Source: a virus
Strand: one strand, 5' to 3'
DNA length: 32,688 nt
IMG/VR virus record: IMGVR_UViG_3300044613_002573
Coordinates: 1-32,688 of that record
The position numbers and the translations under genes are program-made. Under the pieces are notes generated by a model. It searched no databases and was not told where the DNA came from. It was given only the letters and a program-made list of their open reading frames with translations. How positions within the stretch are numbered: the stretch's first letter is position 1; each line of letters starts with the position of its first letter. Of this stretch, positions 2,800-28,400 are shown one piece after another.

Positions 2800-5235
2800 T
2801 CAGACGAGTATAGAGACTCGCTTTCGTTGCGGCAACCCGAGACCGGTAAGAAACGTAAATGCACCAACAGCAGAGTCAACTTGGTCGTCATGGTCGGCCG
2901 CCTCGGGAAATGAGGCAAATTCATCAAGCCAGTTAGTTAACCACGCGTTTCTAACAATCCGAACATTTCCATTGGCCACCGCCGCAGCAAACGGGCGGGC
3001 GCGCGTGGTCTTGTCTCCGGTAGAGCGGATTGCGCCGAAGTCATATCCGGGAACGACATAGCGGGCGAATTGGTCAACGATTGCTTTTCCAGAGGAACCA
3101 GGTTCCTGCTCCATCCTGATCGGAACAGCACGGCCGTCCTCCTCAGCGGTCATGGCAATGAGTTGCTCTACCTTGTCTGACTTGGCGCGAATGCGACGAA
3201 CATCAAGGACATAGGCGATTCCGCCGTCAAACAGCATGAGCGTTCCAACGGTGTAGTCAGGGTTTGGGTTTGACTGGGATGGTTCCGTTGCCGCCATATC
3301 CCAGAACCTCACGACACGAGCAGAACTGGTGATGGCCGGAATCTCGTGGGCATCAATGATGACAAACGAAGTCCGCTCAAAGAGGCTGCCGAGGGTGGTT
3401 GACCACCAGTCACCTTCCTCAAGCCTGCGCCTTTCCACTGGATCAAGGGCTGATAGCGACTGGCGGTACGACACGGCGTCAATGCCGGGGTTGTCGGTCA
3501 ACCGTGACGGAACGAAGATACGCCCAGCAGACTTGCCCTCCACGATGAAACGCTGTCTCACCCAGTTTGGTGCTGGGTTGGATGCCGCACGCATTCTCAG
3601 TGGGATCTGGGAGACCGGACCCGAGGCAGGGCGACGCAAGCGGGAGAAGAGGTATCGATAGTCGGATTCACGGATTTCCGTGACCTCGTCCATGCCGATG
3701 AACTGGAACTCCGAACCCTTGTATCGGAGGTAGTCGTTGGCATTATTTAGATAGCCGAATGAAATACGCGCACCAGACGGGAAGGTCGCGATATAGGTGT
3801 TGCTGTTCCAGTGGATGTCGTCATAGTTGGACATCCACGACCTAAAGCGGTCCATGAGCGCTCCCGGCAGCGAAAGGTCGGCGAATGTACGACGGAAGAG
3901 AATGGCCGAATAGCCGGGAATGTCAACATATTGCAATGCAGCCATAAGAAGCGCCGACGAATTGTGTGTCGGGATAAAGTGATGACCAGTGAGGTACAGA
4001 TGGTCGCTATTAGAGACCTGAATACACTTTACTGGCTGCTCTCCGAGCGCTTCAGCGGAAACGATGTAACGGAATTGCGTAGTGCGCCGCTCGGCAATCC
4101 CTTGGAGGGAGAGTTTCCGTTGCAGTCGAAATACTGGTCGGTTAGGCACAAATTTGACTGTCCACTTGGGACCGCAATCTTTGCCATTGAGTCGTGCGCG
4201 TCCTTCGCGCACGGTCGCCTTCATCCCTAGTGTGCGGGCAAGATGGGCAACGCCATCGACGAGTGACCGGTTCGTATTGCAGAACTCGGCGCTGCCAGAC
4301 CCCTTCGCTACGGTGCCGTCGGTATCCATCAAGCCCTGTAAGAGTGCGAGCCGTTGTGTTTCCCCAGCCCATAGATAATCATGGGGAATGTGTTTGTTGT
4401 TCAGTAACCCTGATGACCTGAGTAGGGTCGTGAAACCCTCATAGCGAACAACCCAGAAACCCGCAGAGCGTTCATACCGTGAGCCCACGGGAAAGATTTC
4501 GGCGCAGTGGTCAAAGACCTCTGGGTCAGCACCACAGATACTTCCCGACGAAGAAAATCCATCCCCGAGCCACGCACCCAAAAGATATGGGTCTATCGGT
4601 AGCGGGCGGTTTGGCAGGTCAAGGACATCTGCTACGGGAATAGCGTGGTTCCGTCTGCCAGTAGCGGTAACTAGCGTGGCAACAATTTCTGCGGTGGTTC
4701 GCACTGCACCCGTAGGCGCTTCCATTGTGGGATTGCGGTGGATTCGGTTGCGTTCGGCAACAGCAACGCTCTTTGTCTCGCCTTGCGAGTGAGTTGCTCT
4801 GGATGCGCGTTTAGCGCGGCGAGCCATTCTGAATGCCTCATTGCGTCGACTTAGGGCGGCGAGTTCGCTAGCGGTGTAAGTAAGCCAGAGATGGTCTTCT
4901 GCTGCCTCTACGGTGGCACCATCATCAAATGTCAGACGGTATGACGGCTTTCGCATTATTTCCGACTCGGCGATGACAAGTTGGCGAGAGCCATCCTTGC
5001 CGAACACCACGCAACCGGGATGGATGTCTGCCATCGGGACAAAACCGTTCAGCGTCGGAATCGGGGTATTCAATAGTTCGGCTTTGCCTCCACCGGCCGC
5101 GCCGCCAAACAGTGCCTCAATCGCATTTGTACGTAGAAACACCTTCTGGTTAATTGACGGCTCTTCTGGACAGAATGGCGGCTCTTTCGGTTGGAGATAC
5201 TCCAAGACCTCATTCCAGTTCGGTGTTCCGGTCAT
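2800..5235 (-). CDS. terL: Terminase large subunit, interrupted by an intein
   Basis: The host protein (about 437 aa without the intein) is the ATPase-nuclease motor that packages DNA into the prohead. The ATPase P-loop is AGGGK at residues 47-51 followed, after the intein, by Ser426. Walker B is FIGMDE with Asp516 and Glu517. The C-terminal RNase H-like nuclease shows VRFWDMAA (Asp646), EQEP (Glu711) and HDDQVDS (Asp783/Asp784). The intein occupies residues 52-425. The flanks join to a normal P-loop, so excision should restore a working motor. The gene is read leftward, away from the portal, which is unusual because terminase and portal normally share a strand. The ATG at 5235 has only a distant GAGG (13 bases). 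No small terminase subunit is visible nearby. Confidence 0.93.
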   Translation of the reverse strand: MTGTPNWNEVLEYLQPKEPPFCPEEPSINQKVFLRTNAIEALFGGAAGGGKAELLNTPIPTLNGFVPMADIHPGCVVFGKDGSRQLVIAESEIMRKPSYRLTFDDGATVEAAEDHLWLTYTASELAALSRRNEAFRMARRAKRASRATHSQGETKSVAVAERNRIHRNPTMEAPTGAVRTTAEIVATLVTATGRRNHAIPVADVLDLPNRPLPIDPYLLGAWLGDGFSSSGSICGADPEVFDHCAEIFPVGSRYERSAGFWVVRYEGFTTLLRSSGLLNNKHIPHDYLWAGETQRLALLQGLMDTDGTVAKGSGSAEFCNTNRSLVDGVAHLARTLGMKATVREGRARLNGKDCGPKWTVKFVPNRPVFRLQRKLSLQGIAERRTTQFRYIVSAEALGEQPVKCIQVSNSDHLYLTGHHFIPTHNSSALLMAALQYVDIPGYSAILFRRTFADLSLPGALMDRFRSWMSNYDDIHWNSNTYIATFPSGARISFGYLNNANDYLRYKGSEFQFIGMDEVTEIRESDYRYLFSRLRRPASGPVSQIPLRMRAASNPAPNWVRQRFIVEGKSAGRIFVPSRLTDNPGIDAVSYRQSLSALDPVERRRLEEGDWWSTTLGSLFERTSFVIIDAHEIPAITSSARVVRFWDMAATEPSQSNPNPDYTVGTLMLFDGGIAYVLDVRRIRAKSDKVEQLIAMTAEEDGRAVPIRMEQEPGSSGKAIVDQFARYVVPGYDFGAIRSTGDKTTRARPFAAAVANGNVRIVRNAWLTNWLDEFASFPEAADHDDQVDSAVGAFTFLTGLGLPQRKRVSILV
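3961..5082 (-). mobile_element. Class 3 intein with LAGLIDADG homing endonuclease, in terL Walker A
   Basis: This 374-residue protein-splicing element (terminase residues 52-425) lies between the Lys and Ser of the Walker A motif. Its first residue is Ala, not Cys or Ser, so classical class 1 splicing cannot start. It instead has the class 3 Trp-Cys-Thr triad: Trp117 two residues after block B His115 (EDHLW), Cys404 in block F (VKCIQV), and Thr423 in block G (PTHN). The C-terminal His424-Asn425 and the +1 Ser426 complete the splice site. Two LAGLIDADG helices, LLGAWLGDG (Asp225) and LLQGLMDTDG (Asp306), mark a probably intact homing endonuclease. What is seen are the residues; the splicing mechanism follows from the known class 3 family. 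Confidence 0.92.
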
Positions 5236-7758: not shown

Positions 7759-8283
7759 ATGTCATTTGATTCGTTTGAATACAAAACAACATCTGAGTAC
7801 GCCGAGAGCGTGAAAGCCGGCGCCATCAACCTTGATGAGGCTCAGGGAATTGTTGAGTGTTTTGTTGCTGGCATCGGCAACAAGGACAGCGTTGGCGACA
7901 TTGTCTCAAGCGGAGCGTTCACGAAGAGCCTGATGCGTCGCAAGCCACGTGTCGTTTGGGGCCACAACTGGAATGACCCAATCGGCAAGGTGCTTGAGAT
8001 CTACGAAGTTGGCCCGAACGACAGGCGCCTACCACTAAAGATGAAGATGGCCGGAATTGGTGGCCTCTTTGCTCGCGTCCAGTTCAACCTTCAGTCCGAA
8101 AAGGGCCGCGAGGCATTTGCCAATGTTGCATTCTTTGGTGAGGAGCAGGAGTGGTCAATTGGCTACAAGACACTCCGCGCGCAGTATGACCAGAAGTCTC
8201 AAGCCAACATCATCCACGAACTTGAACTATACGAAGTGTCGCCAGTCCTCCATGGCGCAAACCAACTAACTGGCACAATTTCG
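7759..8283 (+). other. Domain: HK97-family prohead protease (polyprotein 1, residues 1-175)
   Basis: Family features in order: FVAGIGNKDSVGDIVSSGAF near residue 40, VVWGHNW with His69, GLFARVQFN, EWSIGYK with Ser133, and the closing strand LYEVSPVLHGAN with Glu159. His69 and Ser133 fit the known catalytic His and Ser of this serine protease family (peptidase U35). The family trims the capsid precursor and other procapsid proteins during head maturation. The domain looks complete and active. Confidence 0.88.
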
Positions 8284-11200
8284 GTCAAGGCTGACGACCC
8301 ATACGCAATGGACCCAATGTATGGTCCAGCGACGACAATGGTGAAGCCGAAGCCAGAGCCAGATGCAATGGCGATGCAGAAAATGATGGAAACGCAGTTG
8401 AGCGAAATGCTCGGCATGAAGGTGTCCGTCGTTGAGTTTGATGAGCAAAACGTCACATACGCAAAGCCAGATGCCGATGGCGGAATGCAGAAGTACAAGT
8501 GCCCATACATGCGCGATGGTGGGCGATTTATGTTTGGCGCTCCAAAGCCGGTAATTATTGCTCCAGCGGCCGGTGTTCCAGTTATGCCGAATATGCCAAT
8601 GCCGGCAAACGAGCCACAGCGAGTTATGCGCCCAACGCAGATGCCGGGAATTCCAGTGGCCATTAAGCCAGGTACGTCTGGAATGGTCATGGTTCCGCTT
8701 CCTCCAGTTCAGTACGAGAACCAACCAGCACAGGGTCCAGTTGACAAGAACAACCTTGACAAAGAAGAGGCCGACCTACGCGATGCTCTTCTAAAGATCG
8801 TTAAGCGCCATGGCAGGTTCAATGAAGATTCGTCTGGTGTATGGGCTGGTTACAAGCCGGCAGCAGAGAACTACGTCGCAAAGATTGGCGTGAAGTGCGC
8901 AAACTGCGTCTTCTACGAGGGCGGCAGCACGTGCAAGATCATCGCAATCCCAGTTGAGCCAGAGGGCAAGTGCAGATTTGCCGTCATCCCTAAGGGCGTC
9001 GTGGTTGCCGACCCAATGGCAAAAAAGCAGTACGACATGGAGAGTGGCGCCGACGAGCAGGATTACGTAGAGGAACTTGAAGAGAAGTACCCCGGTGAAC
9101 TCGCTGTTGCCGCTGTTCGCGGAGCACTGAAGCGCCGAAGGGGCAAGAACAGCAAGTACAAGATGCTGAGCGAGTATGGATCGTCCGACGACAAGGGTGA
9201 CATGCCATATGTCATTCCAGTGACGCCGAACGAGGCATTTGCCGTAAAGCAGGCACTTGACCCGATCTTTGACTACTACCGCGCAGAGACATTCGTTGAC
9301 ATTGATGGAATCATCATCAAGTCAGGCGCATCGTTTGACATGATTGAAGCAGTTGACAACGCGCTTCAGAATGTAAAAAAAAAAGCGCTAAGTAAGCCGG
9401 AGGAAAAGTCACTCGGCTACCGAATCGGCAGGGCCGTCGGCAGTCGCCTCGCAGATCGCCCATCAATTGGCAGGGGTGGTAAGGGGCGCCGACGTGGGCT
9501 TGATGTTGATCTGCCAACCGGAGGGAATCCGGGTTCGCGCAAGCCAACGGGTAGCAACTTTGACCCAGACAATGACGGGTGGGTTGACGAAGGAACGACA
9601 AGACCGCGATTCGTTGGCGCAAGAACACCTCAGCCAAATGCAGCAGCAGCAAGAACGGTGGCTCCGCAACAAGAAAGACGATCAGTTGCTGACCGCCTAG
9701 CGAGTTCGCGCGACCTAAATCGCCACGGCCTGCCAAATGAAAATCCAGACATGTTGGATCCGCGTGAGGCGGAAAAGCGCCGTGAGTTTGATGGAATTTC
9801 AAACAACTGGCTCAAGTCAGGTAGCGGCTGGAAATCAAAGCCACGCAAGGAAGGCGACAGGACAAGCAGCCCTGATTTACTACGCGGACGCGAACTCGGC
9901 GAAAACCAAGCGCGACTTTCTTGGAATGGCTCACGCACCGGAAATCTGCGGAGACCCAGAGGGTTTGACGAGCAGGATAGGTCATCCGATGATTACTTTG
10001 ACTGGTATTACGGCCATGTCAACAGGATGGGTTCCTTCCTGTCCGCCCTCAACAGAATGGATCCGGCAACCGCAAAGCGCCGGATATCTCCAGACGAAAA
10101 GCGCGGTATTGAGGAATCAATAATTGACAGCGTTGCGTCCAAGGTTCCCGATCTATCCGGCAATAGACAGGAAGACGAACGCCTCAAGATGTGGCTTGAG
10201 ATGAACGGCTTTGATGGCCGTCTCTCATCTGGTCAGCGCAATAAAGAACCAAAGAAATTCACCGAGCGCGCAGTTGTGCCATTTGATCCATACGGCGATG
10301 ACTTTGACCCAGATAACCCATACGGGGATGAGAATGAGCCATTCCAGTTCGGCGGAAGATCAGGCGAAGACTTCTATGACATGGTCATTGAAGAATTCCT
10401 TGGTCCCGAGGCACCACGCGATCGCATGTCGTCAGGACGCCGTCAAGACGATGAACGGGCAACAGATGAGGAACTCCTTCGTGATTATGAAGAGCAGGTC
10501 AGGCTTGGTAAGGCTGGTCCGCCAACCGATGAAGAGCTTGAGCAGGAATATCAGCAGTGGGTCAATAAGTTCCTTGATGAACGAGAGTTAGATGAGCCGA
10601 TTCGCCCATCTGATAAAGAACTCATGGCCGAATATGAGCGCATGATCGAAGAGGGTGAATTGCGCCCACCGACTGACGAGGAACTTGAAGCAGAGTACCA
10701 AGACAGACTACGTCGCGGCGAAATTGACGAATCGGGCGAAGATGCAAGAAATGATATTGGCCGCCTATCGTCCGGCTATCGCTCCTACCTCGCCCAGCCA
10801 GAGGAGCGTCGGACTCCAAGGCAGGTACAGAAATACGATGGCTATGTTGCCGCATCGCTTTCATCGGGTAAGCGCAAGCCATCAGCACCAGCAAATGCTG
10901 ATGAGCAAGGCGAATTGATTCTAAAGGGATCGCCGAAACTACAGGAAATTTACGATCGTTTTTCGGAGGAAGTAATTGCTGCGCTTGAAGCAGCGATGCA
11001 GGATCCGACTGGTGTGAAGTGGGAAATTCCATGGCGCACAACGAGCGCACCACGTAACCCGGTCACTGAAAAGCCATATACCGGAATTCGCTATAACTTG
11101 GTCTTGCTGAACGCGGTCAAGATGAGCCGTGGATACGATACCTCCAAGTGGGCCGGTGCCGCACAGTGGAGGCGCCGCAACCAGATGCTTCGTGGTGACC

Positions 11201-14200
11201 GTAGTGCTGTTGTGGAAATTGATGAGGAGCGTGGCGTTGACATTCTTGTTCCACAGGTAGTTGATGGCCGCAAGACAGGCAACTATTACGTGCGACGCGT
11301 CTACAACGTCGCAGACGTAAAGGGCCTACCTGAGAGCGAATACAAGAAGGAAGAACCAATTAACCCAGATCAAGCCGCAAAGGAACTTGATCAGGCAATC
11401 AACAATGAGATTCGGCCAAAGATCAAAACCGGCTCGGATGATGGCGCATTCTATAGGCCAAGTGAAGATGTCATTTACATGCCCGACTTTGAGTCGTTTG
11501 TGAGTGCAGAGAGATATTACTCAACCCTCCTGCACGAAACGACTCACTGGACTGGGCACCCAACAAGAAACGACAGACCGCAGAGAAATCTCTTTGGCAC
11601 ACCAGAGTATGCCTATGAGGAACTCATTGCTGAAATCGGAGCATCGCAGGCGCTGTCGCTATTCGGACTGACACTTGGCCCACGCGAAGACCACGTTCAA
11701 TACCTGAAGAGTTGGGTTAGCTTGCTCCGCGAAGACAAGGACGCACTCCGTAGGGCAGTGGATGAGGCGCAAGAAGCAGTTGACGCGATGCTTGAGAAGT
11801 CGCCGACAATGCGCCGCTTCTACGGCGTCCAAGAGTCAGAAGTCACGGCAAGACGCGAGGGATTTAGGCGCCGCAAAATCGGCGTTGAACTCCCAATGGC
11901 CGAAGGCATGGAGGGGAGCGAAAGGATCAAGGGCGGCAAGAAAGCCGGCAAGATGCCGACTAGCGGTCCAGTTTCTGGATACCCGACAGAGATGCTGTCT
12001 AGTGGTCGTCGTCTCAGTGCAGGACAGCGAGACTCTCTCCCGACACATGCAAGTGGACTCTCTCGGGAAGAACGCGATATCTACGAGCCATTTGGCGCTT
12101 CGCAGAGGGGTAGAGATGGCCGAGTCATGGACCTCGGTGGACGTCTCTCAAGTGGCGCTAAGCGCGGCCCAATAAAGGACAGAAACGGCAAGGGAGAGAT
12201 TGAACGTACACCGGATGATGTCTCGGTGCGTGAAATATTTGATTTTTCCTTTGATCCGACCGACCAGCAGCGCGACATTCTTGACACGCTTCTCGCAGTT
12301 GTGTTTGGCAAAACTGGAAAGAAGACGGGTGTCGTATCAGTATCTGCAGGCGCCGGAACCGGAAAGACAACAACACTCAAGACAGTAATGAAGGGGATTG
12401 ACAGGCTATTTGATTTTGGAATATTTGATCGACTGAAGGGCGATGCCAAAGACAAGGCAATAGCAGATAAAAAAGACTATCTTGACAAGTTTTATCCGGA
12501 GATGATCAAGAAGGCAATCAAAGATGCCAAGATTTCCGGAAAGACCAAACTCGCCAATCTCAGCGACGATGAATTTTCAACAGTCATAAAGTCGCTCCAA
12601 AGCGAAGCAAAGAAACTCAAGGGCTTTTACATCGTGTTCGGCAAGAAGAACGAAGAGGACGCCGATGTTGAGTTCCCGGAGAACACTGCCGCCTCCACGC
12701 TTCAAAAACTTGCGTGGTGGGGTCTTAGGAGGGGCATCGGCGACGAACTATACGGTCGCGGAATGCGCAAGAAAATTGCGCTCGGCATGCTCAAGAAGCG
12801 CAAGCACCCAAAGTCAAAGGCTGGTCCAAAAAAAGTCACCTTTGTAGACGCACAGGGTAATGAAGTTGAGTTTGACGGAATGAATCCAGGTTGGAGAGAA
12901 CTTGGGTACAAGATGGTTACCAACGGAATCAGCGTTGATAAATATCTTGATCTAGAGAAGCGTGCAGAAGAAATCGCAACAAGACTTCGCGCAGGAGAAC
13001 AAATACCGGATGCAGAGAACCCATTTGCACAGACAGTAAATGGACAGCGTTATCTCTTGACCAACTCTCAGTTGGGGTCAGTTCTGTTTCGCGCACTCAG
13101 CAACTTCCTGCTGAGCGGCGACGATGAGCCCTCGGCTAAGCACTTCATGAATACAAAAGTGCAGGAAGAACAACTTCAGTACAAAATCAACAATGGAATT
13201 ACTGTTGCCGCCGATGATATCTCGTACCCCGAAATCAGCCAACTTGCTGTTGATGCGATCAAAAAACTCTGGGACGACATGCGCGATGATAATAGTTCGC
13301 TACTCCCACACCAAGGCGCTGTTGAGAAACTATGGGCACTAACACGCCCGTCGCTCAAGTCAAGCCCCGGCATGATTCAGCATGCAAGCAAGGAGCAGGT
13401 GCGTGTTCCGCAAGCATCAGGGCTCCTAAAGCGCGCAGAAGAAGAAGCAAAGAGAATATTCAATGGAAAAATTGACGATTTCAAGATTGCAGAAGCGATG
13501 GCCTCGCTCGTAATTGAGCCAGGTGACCTTGATGGAAAGAAAGCCAAAGATTTCACTGGATATGTGGTAATCAGCGCAAATCGTTCGCCAAATGGTCAGT
13601 GGACAATGACCGTTGCCAAGCCATATGGAGCAGACCCAAAGGACCCCGCAGCGCTAACAATGATTGACGAAGCCCAAGACATGAACGAAGTCATGCTCAG
13701 GGTGCTGCAGGATAATGCCGATGAGGTCCCTCTCGTTATGGTGGGAGACCCGCGACAAGCAATCATGGCTTGGCGTGGAGCAATGGACGTGTTGTCTGCC
13801 ACGGATGCAGATTACGGATTGGCGCTTACTGAGTCATTCCGCTACGGGCCACTGATTGCTCACATGGCAAACATAATTCTGGCGCAAGGGAACTTGGATG
13901 ACCTTGATACCAAGGGCGAACGCACATTTGCACACGTTGTCGGTAGGGCCGATGACCTCATTAAAAAACTATTTACATTTGAGGGAATTGGTGGAGAAGA
14001 CAAGCTCCAAGAGCGTGTGTCGCATATTCAACACGTATTCCAGACTGAACTTGCGGAACTTGCGGCTGCCCGTCCAGAACTTGGCATCAAGAAAGATTCC
14101 GATGGTCTCTACAAGTTAACTGAATTGCGGAGTAGGGACAAAACTGCATTTGAGAATGCCGCAAGAGAATTCCGCGACATGCTTACTACTAGGGCACAGG

Positions 14201-17200
14201 GAACATTCATCGGCCCGGACGATGATGTTGATGCAATTCTTACAGCAACGAATGCTGGGATTATTGACGCTGCTATTCAGTTTGCGCTCAGCCCTGCGGG
14301 TCAACGTTCTCGTGTTGGTGGAAAGCCAACGGCTGTTGTCATTCCGGCAAGTAGATGGAAAGAAATGGTTGATCTACTTCGTCATGTTCAGTACGTTCAG
14401 CAGCAAGACAAATCAAAGTGGACAAAGCCAGAGCCATCATCGCTAATCGGAGATGAGTGGGAGTGGGACAAGATTAAAGGCATGACAAATTCGTCTCAGC
14501 ATGGACCACTGCGTGCACTATTGAATCTCGTAACAAAGCCAATTGCCGGCGAAGATAAACCATTCAGCGCAAGCACATGGCTAAAAATGTTCCAAGAAAC
14601 AAGGACAGACACACCACTTGAAGGTGCGCCACTTCCAATTCAATTCATAAAGTCAAGAAAAGAACTGCGACTTACTGATCTGGTTGATCACCCAGAAAGG
14701 AACGGCGACAATCTCGCTGGTGCAGACTTGGCAAAAATTGCCGCACGAACAGGAAAAGGCCAAGGCCAAGGAACGGGAGATCAGTCAAAGAGTCGCGAGG
14801 CGCGCTACAACATAATCCCAGATCCATTGAGCGCTGATACTAAACGAGTTTATTACACACTTGACTTCTCGGAAGACGACGCATGGAACGGCCGTGTGTT
14901 CATAAGTGGAGGTGGCGCTGCAGGCGCCAAGCAGGATAAACAACGTAATACACAAGGCGGTGTCGGCCAATATCACGATGATATTCAACGTGCAGTTCAA
15001 AAACTCATTGATGACGGCGTAATAACAGCCAGCGAAGCACGCTTCATGCCAGAAATATCCAAAATCAAGACCAGGGACGGTGAGTCACGCGCTGAAGACG
15101 CATTCGTCATTCAGGGATCTGGACGCACCGAAGCAGAACGCAATGACAGGACAGCCTTCATCGTGTCGCGTATTGGGACGATGGTTAGACAGAGCGCCTC
15201 CGGACAAGTTGGCGACATGGAGATCATGACGGCAACTACCGCCAAGGGCAAAGAGTGGGATCGCGTGAGGCTATGGAAAGACTTCACGCCACCGCAAAAG
15301 CCTTTTAAGTGGGATACGGCGTCACCGGAAGAACGCGAAAGACAGGTCGCCAAGACACTTGACTTCTTGACTCCTCTTGCTGATGGGCGGATGAAGAAGA
15401 AGGCAATTTCCCAGATATATGGGATTCCAATGAAGGATCTGGATCGGTACAGTAGGCAGGGAGCACAGGGAAGGGCCGCCCTGCGGGATCTTCTTAAGCC
15501 GCTTGTTGAAGAAAGACTCAAGACGACAAATGCAATAGAGGGCGTTGATTACAGGGAGAAACTCAATCTCCACTATGTAGCCATAACGCGCGCCAAGAGA
15601 GCTCTTGACATGGGCGCTGCTATGTACAAGATTTACCTTCAGGATGCCAATGAAGTACGTAAGTACGAAAAATCAATTGAGGAAGGTCTCGGCGAGGTTG
15701 ACGAAAACGGAAACCCACGCATTCTTCCTGGCGCAAAGAAACCATCGTATTGGAATCTTCCAAAATCATATGCGGATAGGGCGGACGATGATCCGATCTT
15801 TGATCCAGATGCTGACGGCGGTGAGCCAATCGGTGATCTACCAACAGTAGATGAGACTCCAGAACAACCAAAGAAAGGTCGTGGTCGGCCAAAGGCTGAA
15901 GAGGATGAAGACATTGTTGGCGGTCCACAATTTGATGACGACGAGGACGAAGATAGTGGGCCAAGTGACAACATTGATCTTGATAGCGAAGATGATGATG
16001 GTGACGAAGCATCGCAAGCATTGTCTTCTGGAAGAAGAGCAGTAGGCGGCGCATCTCCGCGCCCAAGTGCAACTGGTAGAACTCGTGTCGGCGAACCGGA
16101 GCGCACGCTTTCATCCGGTGTCGGCCCACGACTAAGGGAAAGAGGCGAGGCAGCCGGAAGGCCAGCGGCCATGGGTGGCCGCAGCGGGAGAATGATCAAC
16201 CGCCTATCCAGCGGGAATCGCAATCTCCAAGTTCCCTCTTACCTATCCGGCCTAGGTGATGAAATTGACGACGAAGACGTAGCAAGGGCAGCGAATGTAT
16301 GGAGGGGAATCAGGAATACTGGAATTCCACTGACCATGACAGGTGCGGAGTCCGGCGCAGAGCGGCAACAGAAATTTGACCGCGCAATGAAGTCGGTTGG
16401 GAGCCAAGTCAAGCAAGGCGGACAAGTCACAGTTGGTGATGTCAGCAAAAACGATCCAGAAGACGCCGCATCCAATACCTGGATGCTCCCAGTGTCGCGC
16501 CTAATGGAAACACTACGAGTTCCGCTCAACTTTGATGTAGAGCGAGACGAATCTGGTGCGATAGTTAGCACACGGGCTACGCAGACGCGCTCAATAAACG
16601 CAGACGAACTGGCGACGATGCTTGGTCTTCCTCCGCAGGAAGCACAAAAACTCAGGGATCCGCAGGCCGGAATATCACACGACGACGTACGGCGTCTGGT
16701 TGCCGCTATAGCAAATAGCGACGACTTCCCGGCTTGGCAATACTTCGGTTCGGTCAGTTTCCGTACTGCTGGCCGTGACGCTGTTGCCCAAAGAGGCGTG
16801 ATAGGCGAGAACATGAATCGCCGTCTCATGAGAGACAGATTCATTATTGAAACTTTCGGAGAGGACGCCTATCCTCACTGGTACGACAGAGACGAAGGTC
16901 AGTACATCAGCCCAGAAGAGTATGCCGACCTCGGCGAGGTGAGCCCATCTGCCAAGTTCCGTGCGTTTGGTTCATTTGAGCGCTCTGCCGGCGAACCCAC
17001 ACGGACCCCGTTCTCCGGTGCGGAGGTGGAAATTATGACCAGAGATTATATTGATGCCATGCGCGGAGACGAAGGCAGGCCAACGCCGATAACGGTCAGC
17101 AAAGCTGAAGGAGCGGAAATCAGGAGCAGTTACCCACTAGACAGCCTCCTTGACCATCTCGGCATTGCCCGCGACGAGAATTGGACAGAAGAACTGCGCA

Positions 17201-17727
17201 AACGGATGCAGGCTGCATTTGATACCGACAAAGTTGGCCTATCCGGAACGAACCCAACAGAGCGTAGGGATTGGCAACGCAGAGGAATCCCGACGAGCGT
17301 GGTGAGGGAGATGATCCGCACGGGGATGATTGACAGTGCCGCAACAGTCTGGGGCGATGAGGGTCTTGACTCACAAATTCGCAGGACTACGAACAACGTC
17401 TACGAAGCCCTCATTGACTTCATCAACAAGAATGCTCCAACTGGCAAGGCACCGACGACAAGGCTCAAGGACGAGATTGCGGGAGCCTCAAACCTCGCAG
17501 TGACCCTGCCGCGTGCTGCCAGCAGGAAGAACCGTACGTATTCGGCCAACAACCCCAATGAGAACCTGGTTTCCCAAGACGCAATGCAGGCAATGGTTGA
17601 CAGGCTGAACGAGAAACTCGGCACGAATTTCACTATTGACGATGTATTCAGTGACGAGCAACTCCGCGCAGCCGACGAACGACTCCGTGGTGGCGTTACG
17701 TCATGGAGCAAAGGAAAACAAACCTAG
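7759..17727 (+). CDS. Giant polyprotein 1: prohead protease - ArdC - SF1 helicase
   Basis: A single open frame of 3322 codons. Order: HK97-family prohead protease (1-175); Pro/Met-rich linker; cysteine cluster Cys380, Cys383, Cys392, Cys405; a small folded region to 540; a basic disordered stretch with a calcium-loop-like FDPDNDGWVDEG (601-612); TDEELxxEY repeats (902-980); ArdC antirestriction domain (1055-1330); a complete UvrD/FBH1-like helicase (1490-2630); GRGRPK and an acidic tract (2707-2752); and an unrecognised C-terminus (2820-3322). Nine LSSG motifs divide these parts. Ordinary prohead proteases are about 180-250 aa, so this is an extreme fusion. It resembles the 'polyvalent protein' concept of injected multi-domain cargo. 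All domains are in frame, so an assembly artefact is unlikely. The position after the portal fits a head protease, and the tail domains suggest DNA protection and processing after ejection. Confidence 0.93.
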   Translation: MSFDSFEYKTTSEYAESVKAGAINLDEAQGIVECFVAGIGNKDSVGDIVSSGAFTKSLMRRKPRVVWGHNWNDPIGKVLEIYEVGPNDRRLPLKMKMAGIGGLFARVQFNLQSEKGREAFANVAFFGEEQEWSIGYKTLRAQYDQKSQANIIHELELYEVSPVLHGANQLTGTISVKADDPYAMDPMYGPATTMVKPKPEPDAMAMQKMMETQLSEMLGMKVSVVEFDEQNVTYAKPDADGGMQKYKCPYMRDGGRFMFGAPKPVIIAPAAGVPVMPNMPMPANEPQRVMRPTQMPGIPVAIKPGTSGMVMVPLPPVQYENQPAQGPVDKNNLDKEEADLRDALLKIVKRHGRFNEDSSGVWAGYKPAAENYVAKIGVKCANCVFYEGGSTCKIIAIPVEPEGKCRFAVIPKGVVVADPMAKKQYDMESGADEQDYVEELEEKYPGELAVAAVRGALKRRRGKNSKYKMLSEYGSSDDKGDMPYVIPVTPNEAFAVKQALDPIFDYYRAETFVDIDGIIIKSGASFDMIEAVDNALQNVKKKALSKPEEKSLGYRIGRAVGSRLADRPSIGRGGKGRRRGLDVDLPTGGNPGSRKPTGSNFDPDNDGWVDEGTTRPRFVGARTPQPNAAAARTVAPQQERRSVADRLASSRDLNRHGLPNENPDMLDPREAEKRREFDGISNNWLKSGSGWKSKPRKEGDRTSSPDLLRGRELGENQARLSWNGSRTGNLRRPRGFDEQDRSSDDYFDWYYGHVNRMGSFLSALNRMDPATAKRRISPDEKRGIEESIIDSVASKVPDLSGNRQEDERLKMWLEMNGFDGRLSSGQRNKEPKKFTERAVVPFDPYGDDFDPDNPYGDENEPFQFGGRSGEDFYDMVIEEFLGPEAPRDRMSSGRRQDDERATDEELLRDYEEQVRLGKAGPPTDEELEQEYQQWVNKFLDERELDEPIRPSDKELMAEYERMIEEGELRPPTDEELEAEYQDRLRRGEIDESGEDARNDIGRLSSGYRSYLAQPEERRTPRQVQKYDGYVAASLSSGKRKPSAPANADEQGELILKGSPKLQEIYDRFSEEVIAALEAAMQDPTGVKWEIPWRTTSAPRNPVTEKPYTGIRYNLVLLNAVKMSRGYDTSKWAGAAQWRRRNQMLRGDRSAVVEIDEERGVDILVPQVVDGRKTGNYYVRRVYNVADVKGLPESEYKKEEPINPDQAAKELDQAINNEIRPKIKTGSDDGAFYRPSEDVIYMPDFESFVSAERYYSTLLHETTHWTGHPTRNDRPQRNLFGTPEYAYEELIAEIGASQALSLFGLTLGPREDHVQYLKSWVSLLREDKDALRRAVDEAQEAVDAMLEKSPTMRRFYGVQESEVTARREGFRRRKIGVELPMAEGMEGSERIKGGKKAGKMPTSGPVSGYPTEMLSSGRRLSAGQRDSLPTHASGLSREERDIYEPFGASQRGRDGRVMDLGGRLSSGAKRGPIKDRNGKGEIERTPDDVSVREIFDFSFDPTDQQRDILDTLLAVVFGKTGKKTGVVSVSAGAGTGKTTTLKTVMKGIDRLFDFGIFDRLKGDAKDKAIADKKDYLDKFYPEMIKKAIKDAKISGKTKLANLSDDEFSTVIKSLQSEAKKLKGFYIVFGKKNEEDADVEFPENTAASTLQKLAWWGLRRGIGDELYGRGMRKKIALGMLKKRKHPKSKAGPKKVTFVDAQGNEVEFDGMNPGWRELGYKMVTNGISVDKYLDLEKRAEEIATRLRAGEQIPDAENPFAQTVNGQRYLLTNSQLGSVLFRALSNFLLSGDDEPSAKHFMNTKVQEEQLQYKINNGITVAADDISYPEISQLAVDAIKKLWDDMRDDNSSLLPHQGAVEKLWALTRPSLKSSPGMIQHASKEQVRVPQASGLLKRAEEEAKRIFNGKIDDFKIAEAMASLVIEPGDLDGKKAKDFTGYVVISANRSPNGQWTMTVAKPYGADPKDPAALTMIDEAQDMNEVMLRVLQDNADEVPLVMVGDPRQAIMAWRGAMDVLSATDADYGLALTESFRYGPLIAHMANIILAQGNLDDLDTKGERTFAHVVGRADDLIKKLFTFEGIGGEDKLQERVSHIQHVFQTELAELAAARPELGIKKDSDGLYKLTELRSRDKTAFENAAREFRDMLTTRAQGTFIGPDDDVDAILTATNAGIIDAAIQFALSPAGQRSRVGGKPTAVVIPASRWKEMVDLLRHVQYVQQQDKSKWTKPEPSSLIGDEWEWDKIKGMTNSSQHGPLRALLNLVTKPIAGEDKPFSASTWLKMFQETRTDTPLEGAPLPIQFIKSRKELRLTDLVDHPERNGDNLAGADLAKIAARTGKGQGQGTGDQSKSREARYNIIPDPLSADTKRVYYTLDFSEDDAWNGRVFISGGGAAGAKQDKQRNTQGGVGQYHDDIQRAVQKLIDDGVITASEARFMPEISKIKTRDGESRAEDAFVIQGSGRTEAERNDRTAFIVSRIGTMVRQSASGQVGDMEIMTATTAKGKEWDRVRLWKDFTPPQKPFKWDTASPEERERQVAKTLDFLTPLADGRMKKKAISQIYGIPMKDLDRYSRQGAQGRAALRDLLKPLVEERLKTTNAIEGVDYREKLNLHYVAITRAKRALDMGAAMYKIYLQDANEVRKYEKSIEEGLGEVDENGNPRILPGAKKPSYWNLPKSYADRADDDPIFDPDADGGEPIGDLPTVDETPEQPKKGRGRPKAEEDEDIVGGPQFDDDEDEDSGPSDNIDLDSEDDDGDEASQALSSGRRAVGGASPRPSATGRTRVGEPERTLSSGVGPRLRERGEAAGRPAAMGGRSGRMINRLSSGNRNLQVPSYLSGLGDEIDDEDVARAANVWRGIRNTGIPLTMTGAESGAERQQKFDRAMKSVGSQVKQGGQVTVGDVSKNDPEDAASNTWMLPVSRLMETLRVPLNFDVERDESGAIVSTRATQTRSINADELATMLGLPPQEAQKLRDPQAGISHDDVRRLVAAIANSDDFPAWQYFGSVSFRTAGRDAVAQRGVIGENMNRRLMRDRFIIETFGEDAYPHWYDRDEGQYISPEEYADLGEVSPSAKFRAFGSFERSAGEPTRTPFSGAEVEIMTRDYIDAMRGDEGRPTPITVSKAEGAEIRSSYPLDSLLDHLGIARDENWTEELRKRMQAAFDTDKVGLSGTNPTERRDWQRRGIPTSVVREMIRTGMIDSAATVWGDEGLDSQIRRTTNNVYEALIDFINKNAPTGKAPTTRLKDEIAGASNLAVTLPRAASRKNRTYSANNPNENLVSQDAMQAMVDRLNEKLGTNFTIDDVFSDEQLRAADERLRGGVTSWSKGKQT
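9375..9384 (+). other. A10 run, candidate slippage or frameshift site
   Basis: Ten consecutive A bases encode the end of Val539 and Lys540-542 in polyprotein 1. With one extra A, or a -1 ribosomal shift, the frame reads AGC GCT AAG TAA and stops; with one A fewer it reads AAG CGC TAA and stops. Either slip gives a protein of 543-545 aa that holds the protease and cysteine cluster without the cargo. Runs of nine or more A are known sites of transcriptional slippage. Whether it is used is inference. Confidence 0.5.
10462..10698 (+). repeat. Four TDEELxxEY protein repeats
   Basis: Polyprotein 1 residues 902-910, 923-931, 951-959 and 972-980 read TDEELLRDY, TDEELEQEY, SDKELMAEY and TDEELEAEY, spaced by 21, 28 and 21 residues. 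The region is strongly acidic and predicted helical. The repeats are visible in protein more than in DNA. The role is unknown; a spacer or a protein-binding array is possible. Confidence 0.75.
10921..11748 (+). other. Domain: ArdC-type antirestriction protein (polyprotein 1, residues 1055-1330)
   Basis: The N-terminal half resembles the ArdC single-strand DNA-binding domain, with EIPWRTTSAPRNPVTEKPYTG around 1090-1109 and the following RYNLVLL strand-helix. The C-terminal half is the zincin-like metallopeptidase: LLHETTHWTGH with His1259, Glu1260 and His1263, and the third-ligand helix YAYEELIAEIGA with Glu1287/Glu1288. ArdC proteins protect incoming plasmid DNA from restriction. Here the domain is flanked by LSSG motifs at 1034 and 1413, so it could be released as a piece of about 379 residues. 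Confidence 0.85.
12226..15648 (+). other. Domain: UvrD/FBH1-like SF1 DNA helicase (polyprotein 1, residues 1490-2630)
   Basis: All core motifs are present: Q motif FDPTDQQRDIL (Gln1504), Walker A AGAGTGKT (1530-1537), motif II DEAQD (1970-1974), motif III GDPRQAIMAWRGA (1996 on), motif IV LTESFRYG (2023-2030), motif V TAKGKEWD (2494-2501) and motif VI VAITRAK (2607-2613). The spacing I-II (about 430) and IV-V (about 460) is larger than in typical UvrD, so extra subdomains are inserted. It would translocate 3'-5' on single-stranded DNA if it behaves like the family. The LSSG copies at 1463 and 2755 bracket it. Confidence 0.9.
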
Positions 17728-19424: not shown

Positions 19425-22400
19425 ATGGCCGACAGAGGGCGTAGGGTAGAGAGGCACATACTCTCTAAGCGCCTTATTGTTGACGACTATCTCGCGGTCA
19501 ACCACAACGACCGTGCGGTGGCATTCAAGCAGGCAATCAACGCATCGCTGAGTACATCGGCGCTCAATCCCGATGTCGCAACAAAGGCGGCGATGGGAAT
19601 GGGTGGGCCAAACAGCGACGATACGGACAACAGGAAGCGCGAATTTTCCGCAGATGCACGTCCAGGAGTTGAGACCAACGAACGCGGCTGGCGCTGGGAG
19701 ACGGCGAAATCGCGTGAGCCCGGCGACCAACTATTTCTGTTCCCCTCTTACAGAAGCAGAAAGTCACTTAGCACTGAGCCAAACTTTGGCTGGTTGCCAA
19801 ATGAGCCGGAGGATTATTCCTCATTTGAGGAAATGCTTGAGCGCGTTAGGAACAAGCCATCCGTAAAGATCACCAAGTATCCGGTAAACCCCAAGACCGA
19901 TGACATAAACCGTGATGCAGGGGTTGACATTGATCCATTTTCGATCATGTCCGGCATGTCGTATGAGGAGCGCAAAAAGCGCAGAGAAGAAAAAAAAAGC
20001 AATAAAAACGAAATAAAAACAAAGAATCTTGGCAGGTCATTAAAGGACCGCATCCCCGGCGGAACGCTCGTTGCGCGCGCCGCCGCGATGGCCGGTGTTG
20101 TCATTGATGAACGCAATAAATTCCGGTGCCCACCCGGCACCCCTGCCGCAAACCAGTTCACCGATCGCACTGGTAGCAACTGCTTTGGCTTCAGCCCGTC
20201 GCGTTTTGGACGTTTTGCTGCCCAAATGGCGCGAGAGGTCTACCCAGAGGGCGCTGACCCGAGTGGTCTACGTGGTGGGGTTCGTGGCCTATTTGACTTC
20301 CTTTATACCGGCAGAGGTTCGTACAGCGCACCAGAAGATTTTGGCCGTACTCCGTATTTTGATCCAGTTACCGGTGAGCCAAATGCTCCCATGGATTGGA
20401 GAACCGCAGATCCACCACAAGGAAAGCGATGGATCAAGAACGGTTTTGCAAATGCGCAAGACAAGGTTGCTGCGAATAAGGCCCAAGTACTGAGCCTTCA
20501 GCAGAGACTTGGAGTTGACACCAGCGACGAAGCACGCCGGACAAATGCCGACCTTGAAGAGACGATAGAAAAATTACGTCAATCTGGTGAGTGGGATGTC
20601 CAACTCCAGTCACTGACAGGCACTGGCGGCAAGAGAATGACCGAGCGCCAGGTTGAAGACTTTGTACGCGCGCGTCTTGAGTCAACGCCAGGGTGGCTCA
20701 ATCTATCCAAGCAGGAGCAGGACATACTCGTCCAAGCCGACAAGGTTCGGTACTACCAGACCGAGCGAGGCGTAATCGAAGGAATTCTAACCCAGTACGC
20801 GGAAAATCCAGAACTTGTACGCAACGTTGGAATTATCTCACTTCAGCCGATGCCAAGAAGGGGGATGGTTGACGAGGCAAGTACCGCTTTCTATGGCTCA
20901 GGTAGCAACTTGCGTGCCATCGTAAACATCAACATTGAAGAGATAATGAGCAACCAAGAGGCAATGTTGCCGAACATGGGGCCAAACGAGCGACTGGCAA
21001 TCGCGGCAGTTGGAACACGCACCGATGCGGAGGCCAGTAAGGCAGTTGCTGATTTCTTGGTGTCATCCGACGTTGCTGCTCGCGCAATGGCCGGAATGAT
21101 TGATGGCGCATACTCGTTCGCGGCGCATATTGGGCATCATGAAATTGGGCACGTACTTCAGGGCGCAGTGTTCATGGAGAACATCAGGGAAAGTCTTGCT
21201 GCCAAGGGGTACATAGAAGTTCCTCTCTTCAAGCGAGATGGTTCTCCGGATCTTGATTCAGCAGGAATTCAAAAAGTTGCGCGAGTTACGTCAATGGACC
21301 AACTTACTGGCGGTCAATTGATTCAACTCATGCAAGGAATGTCAAAGGAAATACATCCTGCTGATGTTGACGATGTAATGCGGCGCGCGTCCGTTGTATC
21401 GCTTCTTGCTGGAAACTATCCAGACCAATATAAAGCAGATGGAAACGATCCAGTCTGGCTGCTTGAACTTAGCGCCGAACTACACGCACTACGTTCACAG
21501 GGTTTGTTTACCGGAGAAGACCTTGATGCAGTGAACAAGTTTCTTGAATGGCAGGACGGACCGGCAGATCAGGCAGTCCAGAGACGGCGCGCAGAGTTTG
21601 ACGCCGCAGAGGCCGCACGTGAAGAAGCGGAGTCGTTCACACCCGACGAACCGACAGAGGTAGATATTGATCCAGCATCCGTGACGCCAGCGGAACTTGA
21701 GGAGATATACAAAGACCGGCTTAGCGACTATAGGGACGCAACCGCCGCTCGCCTGATGCAGGCCGAGGAGATGATTGAGCAACTAGACGAACGACAGACG
21801 ATCAGTTTCGGCTCCGAGATGGAAGTGGGGATGCTTGAAGTTGACGAAGAAGTCAATGCGATAACCGAGAGAATCCGGAGCATTGTTGGTGACAAACTCG
21901 CTGAGGATGGCTCCATCAAGATGGATGAACTTAGCGAAGAGTTGCAAAAAGAAATCATGCAACTTCAGTTCCAGCGACAAATCAAGGCCCTTGATCGCTC
22001 GCTCTACGACAAGGTTGCTGGAAGAACGCGCGATTCTTGGCAGAAGAGATACTCGGGCGTCGGCAAGAGCCGTGGTGCCCGCCAGCGATGGGACATCCTC
22101 ATGGAAGATGAGTTGCTGCGTGCTGGATGGGACAGGAAGACGAAGAAGCGACTCCAGACCCCTGATGCTGACTCTCCTGATGCCGACGTGCCGGAAAATA
22201 CCGTAGATCTCCAGTCGGTAAACGACAGTGTCCGTGAGTCGCTAAAGAAGGCTACGCCAGATCAGATTAAGAAAAAGATCATCAATAAGTACAAAGAACG
22301 CGCGCTGATAAAGGATAAGACCTCGGACGACTATCTCATTGCGACAGAAGAACTGGATGCAATGAGCAATGAGTATTTGTTGAAGTTACGTGCATCAGGC

Positions 22401-25400
22401 GATAAGCGGCGCACCGACACAATCCGTAAGGAACTCGTCCAAGAGGTTGAGGCATCTGTTCGTCCAAAGAAGAAGGACCTCAAGAAGTTCAAATCGCGCG
22501 ACGACATCAAGGAAAGCGCGAAGAAGGAACGGGCCACGCACCGCCGCAAACTGACCAAGGAACAAAGGGATGCAGTATCGGAACTTGGGACATTTGAAGA
22601 TGCCGAGATTCTCAGGATGCTTGACCCCCGCGAGCAGGTAGCAGCCGGACGTGCGATAAACAGGAACAACGCAAGGCTCAAGCGCCTTGGTATGAAGGCT
22701 GATCCAAAGTCAAAGGATGAGGGCTCGCTTGAAGAGCAGGTTGAAAACATCCTCATCCCAGCCATGGAGGCTATTGATAAAACAAGCGTTGACCAGCCGT
22801 TTGAAATGGAGACAGTGATGGAGATTGACCCATCACTCGTTTCTGGGCGCGCAATAGGCACAGAGCTTGAGATGAACGGATTCACCATTGGCACTCAGAT
22901 GGTCAATGGCAAGAGCCAAATTGACGTTCCAAAGACCGGACCGGGCGGACAAAAAGCACGTCGCGTCGTGGTTACCGTCAAGGCCGGTGACCGTGGCATG
23001 TTCACCAGTAGGCAGAAGGGAGACGATAGGGATATCTTCACAATGCCCCCCGGCCGCATGCGGATCATCGGCCGCGATCCAGATGGAACGGTCAGAGTTG
23101 AATTTGTTCACCAGTCGGATACACAGGAAGTTGTTGGAAAACTCGCAGTCACAATAGGTGATGGAACCGACGACGCAATTTGGAGAAAAGGCCAGCAGAA
23201 AAAACTCCAGAAGATATTTGACCGTTACGTCGTGTCCTCTGGGGATAGAGGCGACTCACGTGTCGGTCCACGCGACAGTGGTGATAGCGAGATCCGCGAT
23301 ACGAGCACTGCAGTAGTTGATTCAGTAGCGGAAATGGGTGGCTCATTTGCCGAGCCAATTGACGATCTTGATGGAACAGATTCTCCTGAGGCTGGTCGTC
23401 TCTCGTCTGGCGCGCGTCAAGCAGGCCCAACAAGCCCAATCACCCGCGAGGCACAGGAGGCAAAGCGCGCACGTCTCGCTGATGCCGTCCAGACACGTCG
23501 TCTGCAAACAACTGAACGAAGGAAACAGGAACTAGATACTGCAGACAAGCGCGTCACCGAGATGCGTGCAGCAATTGAACATTATGACAGAACAGGTGAA
23601 TGGCGTGGAGGCGAGTATGGAATCAGCCGCACCATCCATAATGAAGATGACCGTTTGGACACTGCATTAGATCTTGACGACAAAACTGACCAGACAAATT
23701 GGACCAGAGAGGAACTTGAGTCATTCTTCCGCGAAGACTTTATACAGAGTAATCCTGGCGCAACTGAAGAGCAAATCCGTGAACGAGTGTCCGCCAGGAT
23801 GTCTTCATTTAGGGATTCGCTCTCACGGAAACTTGATCTATATGAGAAAGAAGCACGACTAAAGAAACACAACCTTGAGGCAGAAGCACAAAGGCGCAGT
23901 CAGAATACGATAGATATTGAGGATCTTCCCGATGAAGTTGTTGACATGCTTGCGGCAGAGAGTGCGCATATAGGTAGTCTTGCAAAAGAAAAGCAAGATC
24001 AGTTATTTTCAACTGGTGATCCATCTACAAAAGCGGTAGTACATAGCGGCGCGGCCGAACTTGCTGGAGGGGTAATCGATCCAAGTAGGTCGGTTGGGAC
24101 AGAAAGTGGAGGTGGCGATGCAATAATGTCCGACACAGCCCAAATTAACAGAAATCAGGCCGCGTATGCACGTGAACAACTGCGCAAGACTAAAACACGA
24201 ATCTCAGGAATGGGAGATATTCGTGCATGGCTTGAATCGGATGATGATGAAATTGTTTTCACTTCAATGGATGAGTTGGAAAATGTACCATTAACAATTA
24301 ATGGCACAAATATACGTGGAGTCATGCAGGACTCCGGTCGTGTTGTTCTGAGGAAATCAGAACTTTCAAAATCCGAACGTCGTTCAATTGAAGATTTTGT
24401 TAGTGAAGCGGAAGAAGCTGAACTGCTTAAAACAATAACCAAACTAGAGAAAGCAGCGGAGATTCTTGAGCGAAACGACAATCAATATATGTCTGTTCAT
24501 TCACGAATCAGCCCTGAGGGGATTGGATTTGCGAAATCGCCGGGTTATTACGGTAGGCATGCATACAAAGTTGTTCCCAGTGATGTAGCCGAGTATCCAT
24601 TACTTGGAGAAATGGAAAGAGGTACGAATCCAGTAATCAAAGACGAACTCATGGAAAGGCGCTGGAAAACACAAGCAGCGCGCGGCGCGACGCACCTTGT
24701 TATTGGCAAAACTGACGAAGATATTGTAGACATTATGGAAGCGTCTGATGAGCGTCAAATACTCTCACGCCTTGCTCCGGTCATTGGTATTTCTACGCCG
24801 GTTCCCGCATCAATTGCCTACAACCCAAACGCAGGCAGTTCTGGAATGGGACCAAGTAAAACTCAAGAAATGGGACTTCTTACTCAAAAAACAGGACCAG
24901 CAATCATTGCCCGCGCCCTGAAGCAACTCAAGCGCGACGGTCGCGTTGACATGGATACGGTTCTCTCCGATCCGACGCTGGCACCGGATGACATGCCATC
25001 AGCATCACTTAGTTCTGGACGGCGCGGTGAAGGACCTACTGCTGGTAGTGGAGTATCCCGTGCTCTCGGCATGGCTGCTGGCGGAACAATCAGAAGCCGT
25101 GCGACGGGGAAGGTAGTAGACAAGATCTTGGAAAGGACCGGCGCTGACGAAGATACAAAAGCCAATGTAAAAGTCGGTCTTGGATTGATTTCCGCCTTTG
25201 GTGCCGGTGGTCCTGCTGGTGCGGCGACGTACGTTGCTGTTGAAGCCGCAAGAAGAGGCGGCAGGGATCTTGCTGAATTCGTGGTTGACGAACTCGTAGA
25301 GCGCGGCAGAATGACCCCCGAGCAAGCCGGTAGAGCCATGGACGCCGTTGACAGGATTGCTCCTAATGGCCTTCCGGATGGAGCCAAGAGAAAACTTGGG

Positions 25401-28400
25401 CAGGCATTCACCGAAGCAGCAGACCTACTGGAGCGGGTAAATACACCAGAGAACAGGGCAAGACTCGCAGAAATGAGCGACGATGCCATTGATTCAGTTG
25501 TTGAGAAAGCGAGAAGCGCCAAGGAGGGCGTCCGCGAAATAACCGATACCACGGTTGAGAGCCTGCGCGATCTTGGTAGTTCGGCGCGGGAACTCGGTGG
25601 CTCTGCAAGGGAGAAACTGCGTGGGGTGCGCACGCGAGTCATGGGGCCGGGTGCAGCCAGAGTTGACGGATCCGGGCCCAAACTGTCTTCCGGATCGCGT
25701 ATTGCAGAACTCCCAACGCCAAGGGAAATCGCATCACGCCGAGAAGTTGTACGTAGCAGAGCGGTCGCTGCTGATAAAGAACGCGGAGAAGCAGTTGACA
25801 GGGCTACCAAGACCGTTGATGGGCTCAAGAAGGCGCTTGACGAGTTTGAGAGAACCGGGGAGTGGAGGGGTGGTGACTATGGTGTAGGGACATTACCCGA
25901 TACGGTTCCGGAAAATACTTCCCTAGAAGAAGCGTCCGCCAAGGCGAGTAATCGGTCCATGCAGGAACTCATGCAGATCCTGAAAACTGCACCACCGCAA
26001 AATGCGACGCCAGAGCAAATAAAAGAGGCGGAAGAAAAGACAAAACAAGCACTTCGGGCGCGCGTTGAAAAAACAATCAGCCTTTGGGAGAAGGACAAGC
26101 GCGTGCGTCAGCACAACCTTGAGTCTTCCCGTCTACGCCGCGAACAGGGAACAATTGACATTGAAGACATACCGGATGATGTTCGTGCTGAACTCATCGC
26201 CGAGGGCGGCGCACTCCTTGATGCTGCATATCAGGATCGGTCAGTACTGGATCCAATATTCTCCACTGGCAGTGATTCTTCGCGCGTGGTTATCCATCAA
26301 GGACCAGACACGCTCAAGGACGGAGTTATTTCACCAAACGTAAATTTTGGTTCAACAGAGTCGGGATCGCTAGGTGGAAATACCGCAGCAGTAAATGCAA
26401 TTGGCGCGCAACGTTTCTACGAGCGCCATGAACGCCGTGTAAGGCAAAGGCGCAATCTTGGAGATATCCGCCGGTTGCTTGATGGGGAAGTTGACAGAAT
26501 TGAGATTGACGACCAATCAATCCGCGCAGACCTTGAGGGGCTGATACCTGGATATAGCAGTGCCAATACCAGCCTCACCAGAGACCAGATCAATGGCCTT
26601 ACGCCGGCTCAACGCAATTCGCTTCTCAATCAGTATGCAAGCAAAGAGAAACTTGACCGACTAGACACAGATATTTCAAAGTCGCAAAAAACATATGATG
26701 TGTTGAAGAGCAACGATGGACAGCATCAGTCGGCATATTCGGACCCAGTGAGCGGTGTTGCCGGTGGCTATTACGGTCGTTACGCCCAAACAACGACAAT
26801 TCCGAAAGACGTTGCCGATATCGCCCCAGAATGGGAAGGCGGCGTACGAGGAGAGAAAACCAAGATAAACGACCCAGATGCCTATAAGCGCTGGCAAAGC
26901 GCCATGCGCGGCGGTCACTTTGTTGTCGTTGGCGAGCGCGGCAGTGAAATAACGCAAGACTGGGGTCCAAGTGACGAGGCTCAAATCATCGCTCCTAAAA
27001 AACCGATTATTGGAATTTCTGGACAATTAAACCCAGGCAAAGGACAGATCAGCGGCACCAGCAGTGATGGACAGAAAATATCTATGGCTATTGCCGCACG
27101 CGCAATGGAGCAATACAGACGAGATGGCCGTGTAGACCCAGAGACTGTTCTTGCAGATCGCTCGCTAGTTCCGGAACTTGCCAGTATTGACATCACAGGT
27201 CGCTCCGAGCGCGCCATTGAAGAACTCCGCGCCGCAGAGAAATCCGCCCATAATCCGTGGATAACGACAAAAGATCTGATCAGCATCTCCACGAAACAGG
27301 AGAAGCCCAACACAAAGCCGGACGAACTAGTCCTCGGCCAAGAAACTCGGTCTCAGCGCAAGAAAGAGCGCATGGCGATTGTCGGCAAGGCGATATATGA
27401 ACTCAAGCAGATAATTGGTGGGGCGACATCTAAGGAATTCCCTGGCGTCACCCGTGCTGACATAGACCCAAAGATCGTGCGCCTATTGATGAAGGAGCCG
27501 CTAGAGGTTCTCAATGCACGACTTGAAAAGGCCGCAATGAGGATGCACATGGGCTTTGACCGGCGTGTGCGCGTGCGAATGACAGAAGATGACCTAATGA
27601 ACTTTGGCAAGACCGGCTCAGTTCGGGCAGGTGGGACAAACAGTAGTTCGCAGCCATCACGACGACTTGAGCGCCTCATGCGGATGGACCCCGAATATCG
27701 TGAATCACGCTCGGCAAGGTCAATGGCCGGAAACAAGATTGCCCCCGTTTCTGGGACTGACAGCGCTGTATCACAGGGCCTGAAAATGGCGCAAATGATC
27801 CTTGAGTCTGGCAAAACTCTGTCAAACATGTCCGATGAACAGATACAGGATACGTTCAGCGGCGAAGTCTCTAGAAAAGATAACAATAGAAACGATAGAG
27901 AATCAGACCCAGTCTACCTAACCAAGAATCGTGCAATTGCGGTTGCGATACTTGCACTTGGCGAGAAGGTTGAACTTCAGCCAAGTTCGACAACCGGAAA
28001 AATCATCCCTCAGCAGTTGGTGAGCGAGGCAACATCTGGCGCACTGCTACTCGTGTCCAAGGATTCTGATGAATGGCGCGACTTTGCTGAAAAAATCGGC
28101 TTGCCAAGTGACGAGCGCGCCACAAATGAAGAAATGGACGATGCGCTAACCAACTTCATTGAAACCTACAACATCAACTTCTGCTCAATGCCACAAGCCA
28201 GCGGGAATATCCTGTGCATCAGTGGAGTTGAGGTTGACAGAAATGAAATGCCACAACTCGTCGGTAATCCAATTGACGGTAAGAGCGTTGCTGGAAGAAT
28301 GTTCATTGACGGCATGCTTGACGGAACATGGAAGTCCAAGTTCGCAGACGAACTGGCAGAGTCGCGCGAGAAACTGCGTGCTGCAAGAAATTCGCGAGAT

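Follow-up and report, generated by a model that had tools for sequence, protein, structure and literature searches.

How does a phage keep a working packaging ATPase when the gene of its large terminase subunit (TerL) is interrupted, within the codons of the ATP-binding loop, by a long in-frame insert, and how did the insert come to be at such a place? A preliminary description of this DNA had proposed a class 3 intein inside the terminase ATP-binding loop, and the sequence, its relatives and a confident structural model all support this proposal. The window, i.e. the whole stretch of 32,688 bases analysed here, is a single IMG/VR virus record and probably a fragment of a phage genome. The answer that we regard as highly probable is that a class 3 intein carrying a LAGLIDADG homing endonuclease lies in the Walker A motif of a tailed-phage TerL, splices via its Cys353 and homes into empty terL genes.

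The interrupted terminase gene and its empty-site relatives

The product of the open reading frame (ORF) at 5235..2800 on the minus strand is a TerL, with matches to Terminase_6C (2.6e-14), TIGR01630 (1.3e-18) and phrog_979 (4.4e-99). Its parts, in window coordinates, are as follows.

2800..5235, minus strand: terL precursor ORF, 811 aa, consisting of a 374-aa intein and 437 aa of extein
5083..5235, minus strand: N-extein, 51 aa, with Walker A GGAAGGGK as its C-terminal end (from empty-site relatives)
5083..5106, minus strand: Walker A GGAAGGGK, up to the insertion point (from empty-site relatives)
3961..5082, minus strand: intein, 374 aa, Ala1 to Asn374, precursor residues 52-425, in frame (from empty-site relatives and alignment)
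2800..3960, minus strand: C-extein, 386 aa, the remaining ATPase and the RNase H-like nuclease

The intein splits Walker A between Lys and Ser (GGAAGGGK/SS, then ALL). To find TerL relatives, viral contigs were searched with the C-terminal extein alone, and the 80 closest loci were retained. Walker A is unbroken, GGGK-SSALL, in 78 of them, which are about 82-94% identical to the window TerL in the C-extein, the closest being L026 at 94%. As for the remaining two, one (L025, the same contig as L003) is identical to the window including its intein, and the other begins past the site at a contig edge. Because 78 of 80 relatives are uninterrupted at exactly GGGK/SSALL, the insert is real, optional and exactly bounded; this comparison with intein-free homologues, which the preliminary description had called for, shows its span of 3961-5082 between the Walker A Lys and Ser to be exact. 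It had further held that packaging is strictly dependent on splicing. Since Walker A is split and a second TerL gene is absent from the 32.7-kb contig, a dependence of packaging on splicing can soundly be inferred from the sequence; the word "strictly" is weakened by the contig being probably incomplete.

Several other features of the window were recorded. A 3322-aa ORF (7759-17727, plus strand) combines a Peptidase_S78 prohead protease domain with ArdC N-terminal, MPTase-PolyVal and UvrD-like helicase domains and is, judging by these domains, a giant polyvalent protein with a head protease at its start. Another ORF of 3854 aa (19425-30989, plus strand) has zero Pfam matches at E 0.001, and ORFs are also found on the strand opposite the intein. 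A scan of bacterial and archaeal genomes for the host of the phage gave four MAG contigs with labels from three phyla (Phycisphaerae, Acidimicrobiia and Gammaproteobacteria), which are too mixed to indicate a host.

Splicing residues, modelled fold and proposed mechanism

Class 3 inteins are defined by Trp-Cys-Thr in blocks B, F and G (PMC5050341, PMC7664689), and Cys-His-Thr has been proposed as the catalytic triad of MchDnaB1 (PMC7664689). The corresponding residues of the window intein, together with its endonuclease, are located as follows.

5080..5082, minus strand: Ala1, a non-nucleophile at position 1 (A, L, G or D in relatives)
4891..4893, minus strand: His64, counterpart of MchDnaB1 His65 (alignment)
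4885..4887, minus strand: Trp66, block B, W of the WCT motif (alignment to 6rix and 6bs8)
4081..4614, minus strand: LAGLIDADG homing endonuclease domain, limits approximate (fold, Pfam)
4558..4584, minus strand: LAGLIDADG motif 1, LLGAWLGDG, precursor residues 218-226, with Asp225
4315..4344, minus strand: LAGLIDADG motif 2, LLQGLMDTDG, precursor residues 298-307, with Asp306
4024..4026, minus strand: Cys353, block F, C of the WCT motif, the expected initiating nucleophile (alignment to 6rix and 6bs8)
3967..3969, minus strand: Thr372, block G, T of the WCT motif (alignment to 6rix and 6bs8)
3961..3966, minus strand: His373 (penultimate) and Asn374 (terminal)
3958..3960, minus strand: +1 Ser, second nucleophile and also the Walker A Ser

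His64, Trp66, Cys353, Thr372 and His373-Asn374 all match their counterparts in the class 3 inteins 6rix and 6bs8, and none of the Trp, Cys, Thr, His and Asn columns varies among the 19 aligned inteins, the window included. In the same alignment position 1 is Ala, Leu, Gly or Asp, never Cys or Ser, and the +1 residue is Ser or Thr. The earlier reading of an intein that lacks a nucleophile at position 1, bears all three class 3 residues and is followed by a +1 Ser is thus borne out. Its Trp117, Cys404 and Thr423 are the right residues under precursor numbers, the intein numbering being W66, C353 and T372. For the splicing halves the top PDB sequence matches are class 3 DnaB inteins (5e-15), which, with the invariant columns, argues that the identification is not due to chance. 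Pfam splicing-domain models gave no match on the window intein, and the call of a splicing domain rests on the PDB sequence matches, the fold and the alignment.

An AlphaFold2 model of the intein, built on the 19-intein alignment, reached a mean pLDDT of 86 and a pTM of 0.84. Its best whole-chain fold matches are PI-SceI entries (Z 26 over about 335 residues), and the best among splicing-domain-only structures are class 3 DnaB1 inteins (6bs8: Z 19.3, 1.4 A over 124 residues); the modelled chain contains the HINT splicing fold. In the endonuclease, Pfam finds LAGLIDADG_3 (4.7e-10) and Hom_end (5.4e-07), both above cut-offs, the acidic residue is retained in both LAGLIDADG motifs and a KHIP block is present. 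These features and the modelled fold agree with the earlier impression of a two-motif endonuclease that looks intact.

From what is known of the family we infer the chemistry and the competence of this intein for splicing. After translation, the block F Cys353, helped by His64 and Thr372, would attack the Lys51-Ala1 peptide bond and take the N-extein as a thioester, and this chain would then be transferred to the +1 Ser. Cyclisation of Asn374 and ligation of the exteins would restore GGAAGGGKSS and hence a working packaging ATPase. By the same family analogy the endonuclease would be active and would cut terL alleles that lack the intein, at the conserved codons of the P-loop, with repair copying the intein in.

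Homing history of the family and alternative readings

A scan based on the intein gave 22 viral loci, and in 21 of the 21 with a readable N junction, phage Contagion included, the insert lies at the same P-loop Lys/Ser or Lys/Thr point. The terminases sharing this site are highly divergent, down to 26-40% identity. In comparisons with close TerL relatives, intein identity (55-65%) is lower than extein identity (70-77%), whereas with distant ones the intein is the better conserved part (45-52% against 26-40% for the C-extein), a reversal not predicted by vertical descent. In the wider family the intein and extein trees are in well-supported conflict: L011 and L015 form a pair in the intein tree (support 100/99), but in the extein tree L011 pairs with L016 (100/99) and L015 with L017 (100/98). 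Between L004 and L005, fourfold sites differ at 13/170 in the intein versus 65/189 in the C-extein (p = 3e-10), so the intein there is younger than its host gene; the endonuclease part of this pair has a low dN/dS of 0.055, though from few changes. On the tree of close TerLs, at least three gains or losses are required to account for which of them have the intein. All these observations are the traces expected of homing, the evidence coming from relatives and not from the window's own copy. In the window's own group (with L004, L006, L009 and L012) intein and extein trees mostly agree, the intein has few close relatives (the nearest 64% identical, apart from the identical contig L003), and synonymous sites are saturated for dN/dS against its nearest intein relatives.

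Related inserts following a P-loop-like GK or VGK were also aligned from Microcystis, Gordonia, Clavibacter and Acinetobacter phages. Some intein-bearing phage proteins (L118, L110 and L115) carry the names "putative replication protein P", "exonuclease" or "HNH endonuclease", labels which may be taken from the intein or mistaken. L019 (1474-2484) has LGNG replacing LGDG in its LAGLIDADG motif 1 with the splicing residues kept, and its endonuclease may be dead. In L006 a second TerL insert of 343 aa (3595-4623), running from Cys1 to Gly-Asn/Ser with LAGLIDADG_3 at 2.7e-05, lies at YKG/SEF just before Walker B; by its sequence it is a class 1-like intein sharing the gene with the class 3 one, and the same site is empty in the window TerL. 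As a tentative picture, to which we would not yet commit, one class 3 intein lineage may have specialised on Walker A codons and moved among otherwise dissimilar terminases, its endonuclease recognising DNA that cannot vary freely in any packaging ATPase gene; in L006, stacked with a class 1-like intein near Walker B, it would give one motor two splicing chemistries.

Other readings of the window intein have to be weighed. Its Ala1 would also suit class 2-type splicing, a direct attack of the +1 residue on the N-junction that needs no block F Cys. However, the window intein has Trp66, Cys353 and Thr372, none of which varies among relatives, its nearest solved splicing domains are of class 3, and its +1 residue is Ser, in contrast to the Cys which known class 2 inteins, to our knowledge, use; we give this reading almost no credence. 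A less remote case is that the splicing domain works while the endonuclease of the window copy is already inactive, the intein being merely inherited now. The search gave no second independent copy close to the window intein, and the LGNG of the distant relative L019 shows that decay occurs in the family, but the window copy retains the Asp of each motif, the KHIP block and the endonuclease fold, which makes such a state unlikely.

The intein might also be a regulatory switch, with splicing withheld until redox or other conditions shift and packaging thereby timed. In M. smegmatis, a DnaB intein of class 3 is reported to act as an oxidative stress sensor (PMC6195587), and the authors of the Mic1 paper proposed packaging control by TerL inteins (PMC7156551). 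Nevertheless, five mycobacteriophage terminase inteins spliced fast in a reporter (PMC5050341), and sporadic presence with many empty close relatives fits a selfish element without a needed role; we therefore consider a switch quite improbable. The class 3 intein with a homing endonuclease is the reading compared with known systems below.

Comparison with known inteins

The solved DnaB1 inteins of M. smegmatis (6bs8) and M. chimaera (6rix) share with the window intein the WCT motif, the triad His and the splicing fold (Z 19), but they are DnaB-derived, 139-146 aa long and lack an endonuclease, whereas the window's has one and lies in TerL. Since the class 3 structures among the search matches are without an endonuclease, the window intein could serve structure work. 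PI-SceI, the VMA intein, resembles it in the whole-chain fold of a splicing domain and a two-motif LAGLIDADG endonuclease; however, it is class 1 (Cys1) and comes from a eukaryotic V-ATPase gene. The freshwater cyanophage Mic1 also has an intein-bearing TerL, with two inteins as in L006, but their author-given boundaries are Cys and Asn, i.e. class 1-like (PMC7156551).

In mycobacteriophages, terminase inteins occupy seven sites (Kelley et al. 2016, PMC5050341). One of these, TerL1-a, separates the P-loop Lys from the Thr that follows, and the window insertion at the Walker A Lys/Ser of TerL falls at this TerL1-a type of P-loop site. In a reporter, splicing was seen for five inteins taken from other terminase sites, two of which also cut empty alleles (PMC5050341). 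Closest in kind is gp8 of Contagion, by our reading of its insertion site a TerL1-a example: the insert is between the P-loop Lys and Thr and has Ala1, the Trp, Cys and Thr, LAGLIDADG motifs and a C-terminal His-Asn. It differs in being about 36% identical to the window intein, in a +1 Thr instead of Ser, and in belonging to another terminase family and another host group. The preliminary description does not mention such precedents for the site and the class. The general picture of intein function is unchanged. What the family illustrates clearly is homing between distantly related terminases, at a site that is essential and can hardly vary. Because site, class and endonuclease type are already on record together in other phages, Contagion among them, the window intein is another member and not a new type; what it adds is a well-bounded, endonuclease-bearing class 3 intein from an aquatic phage group, with 78 natural empty alleles.
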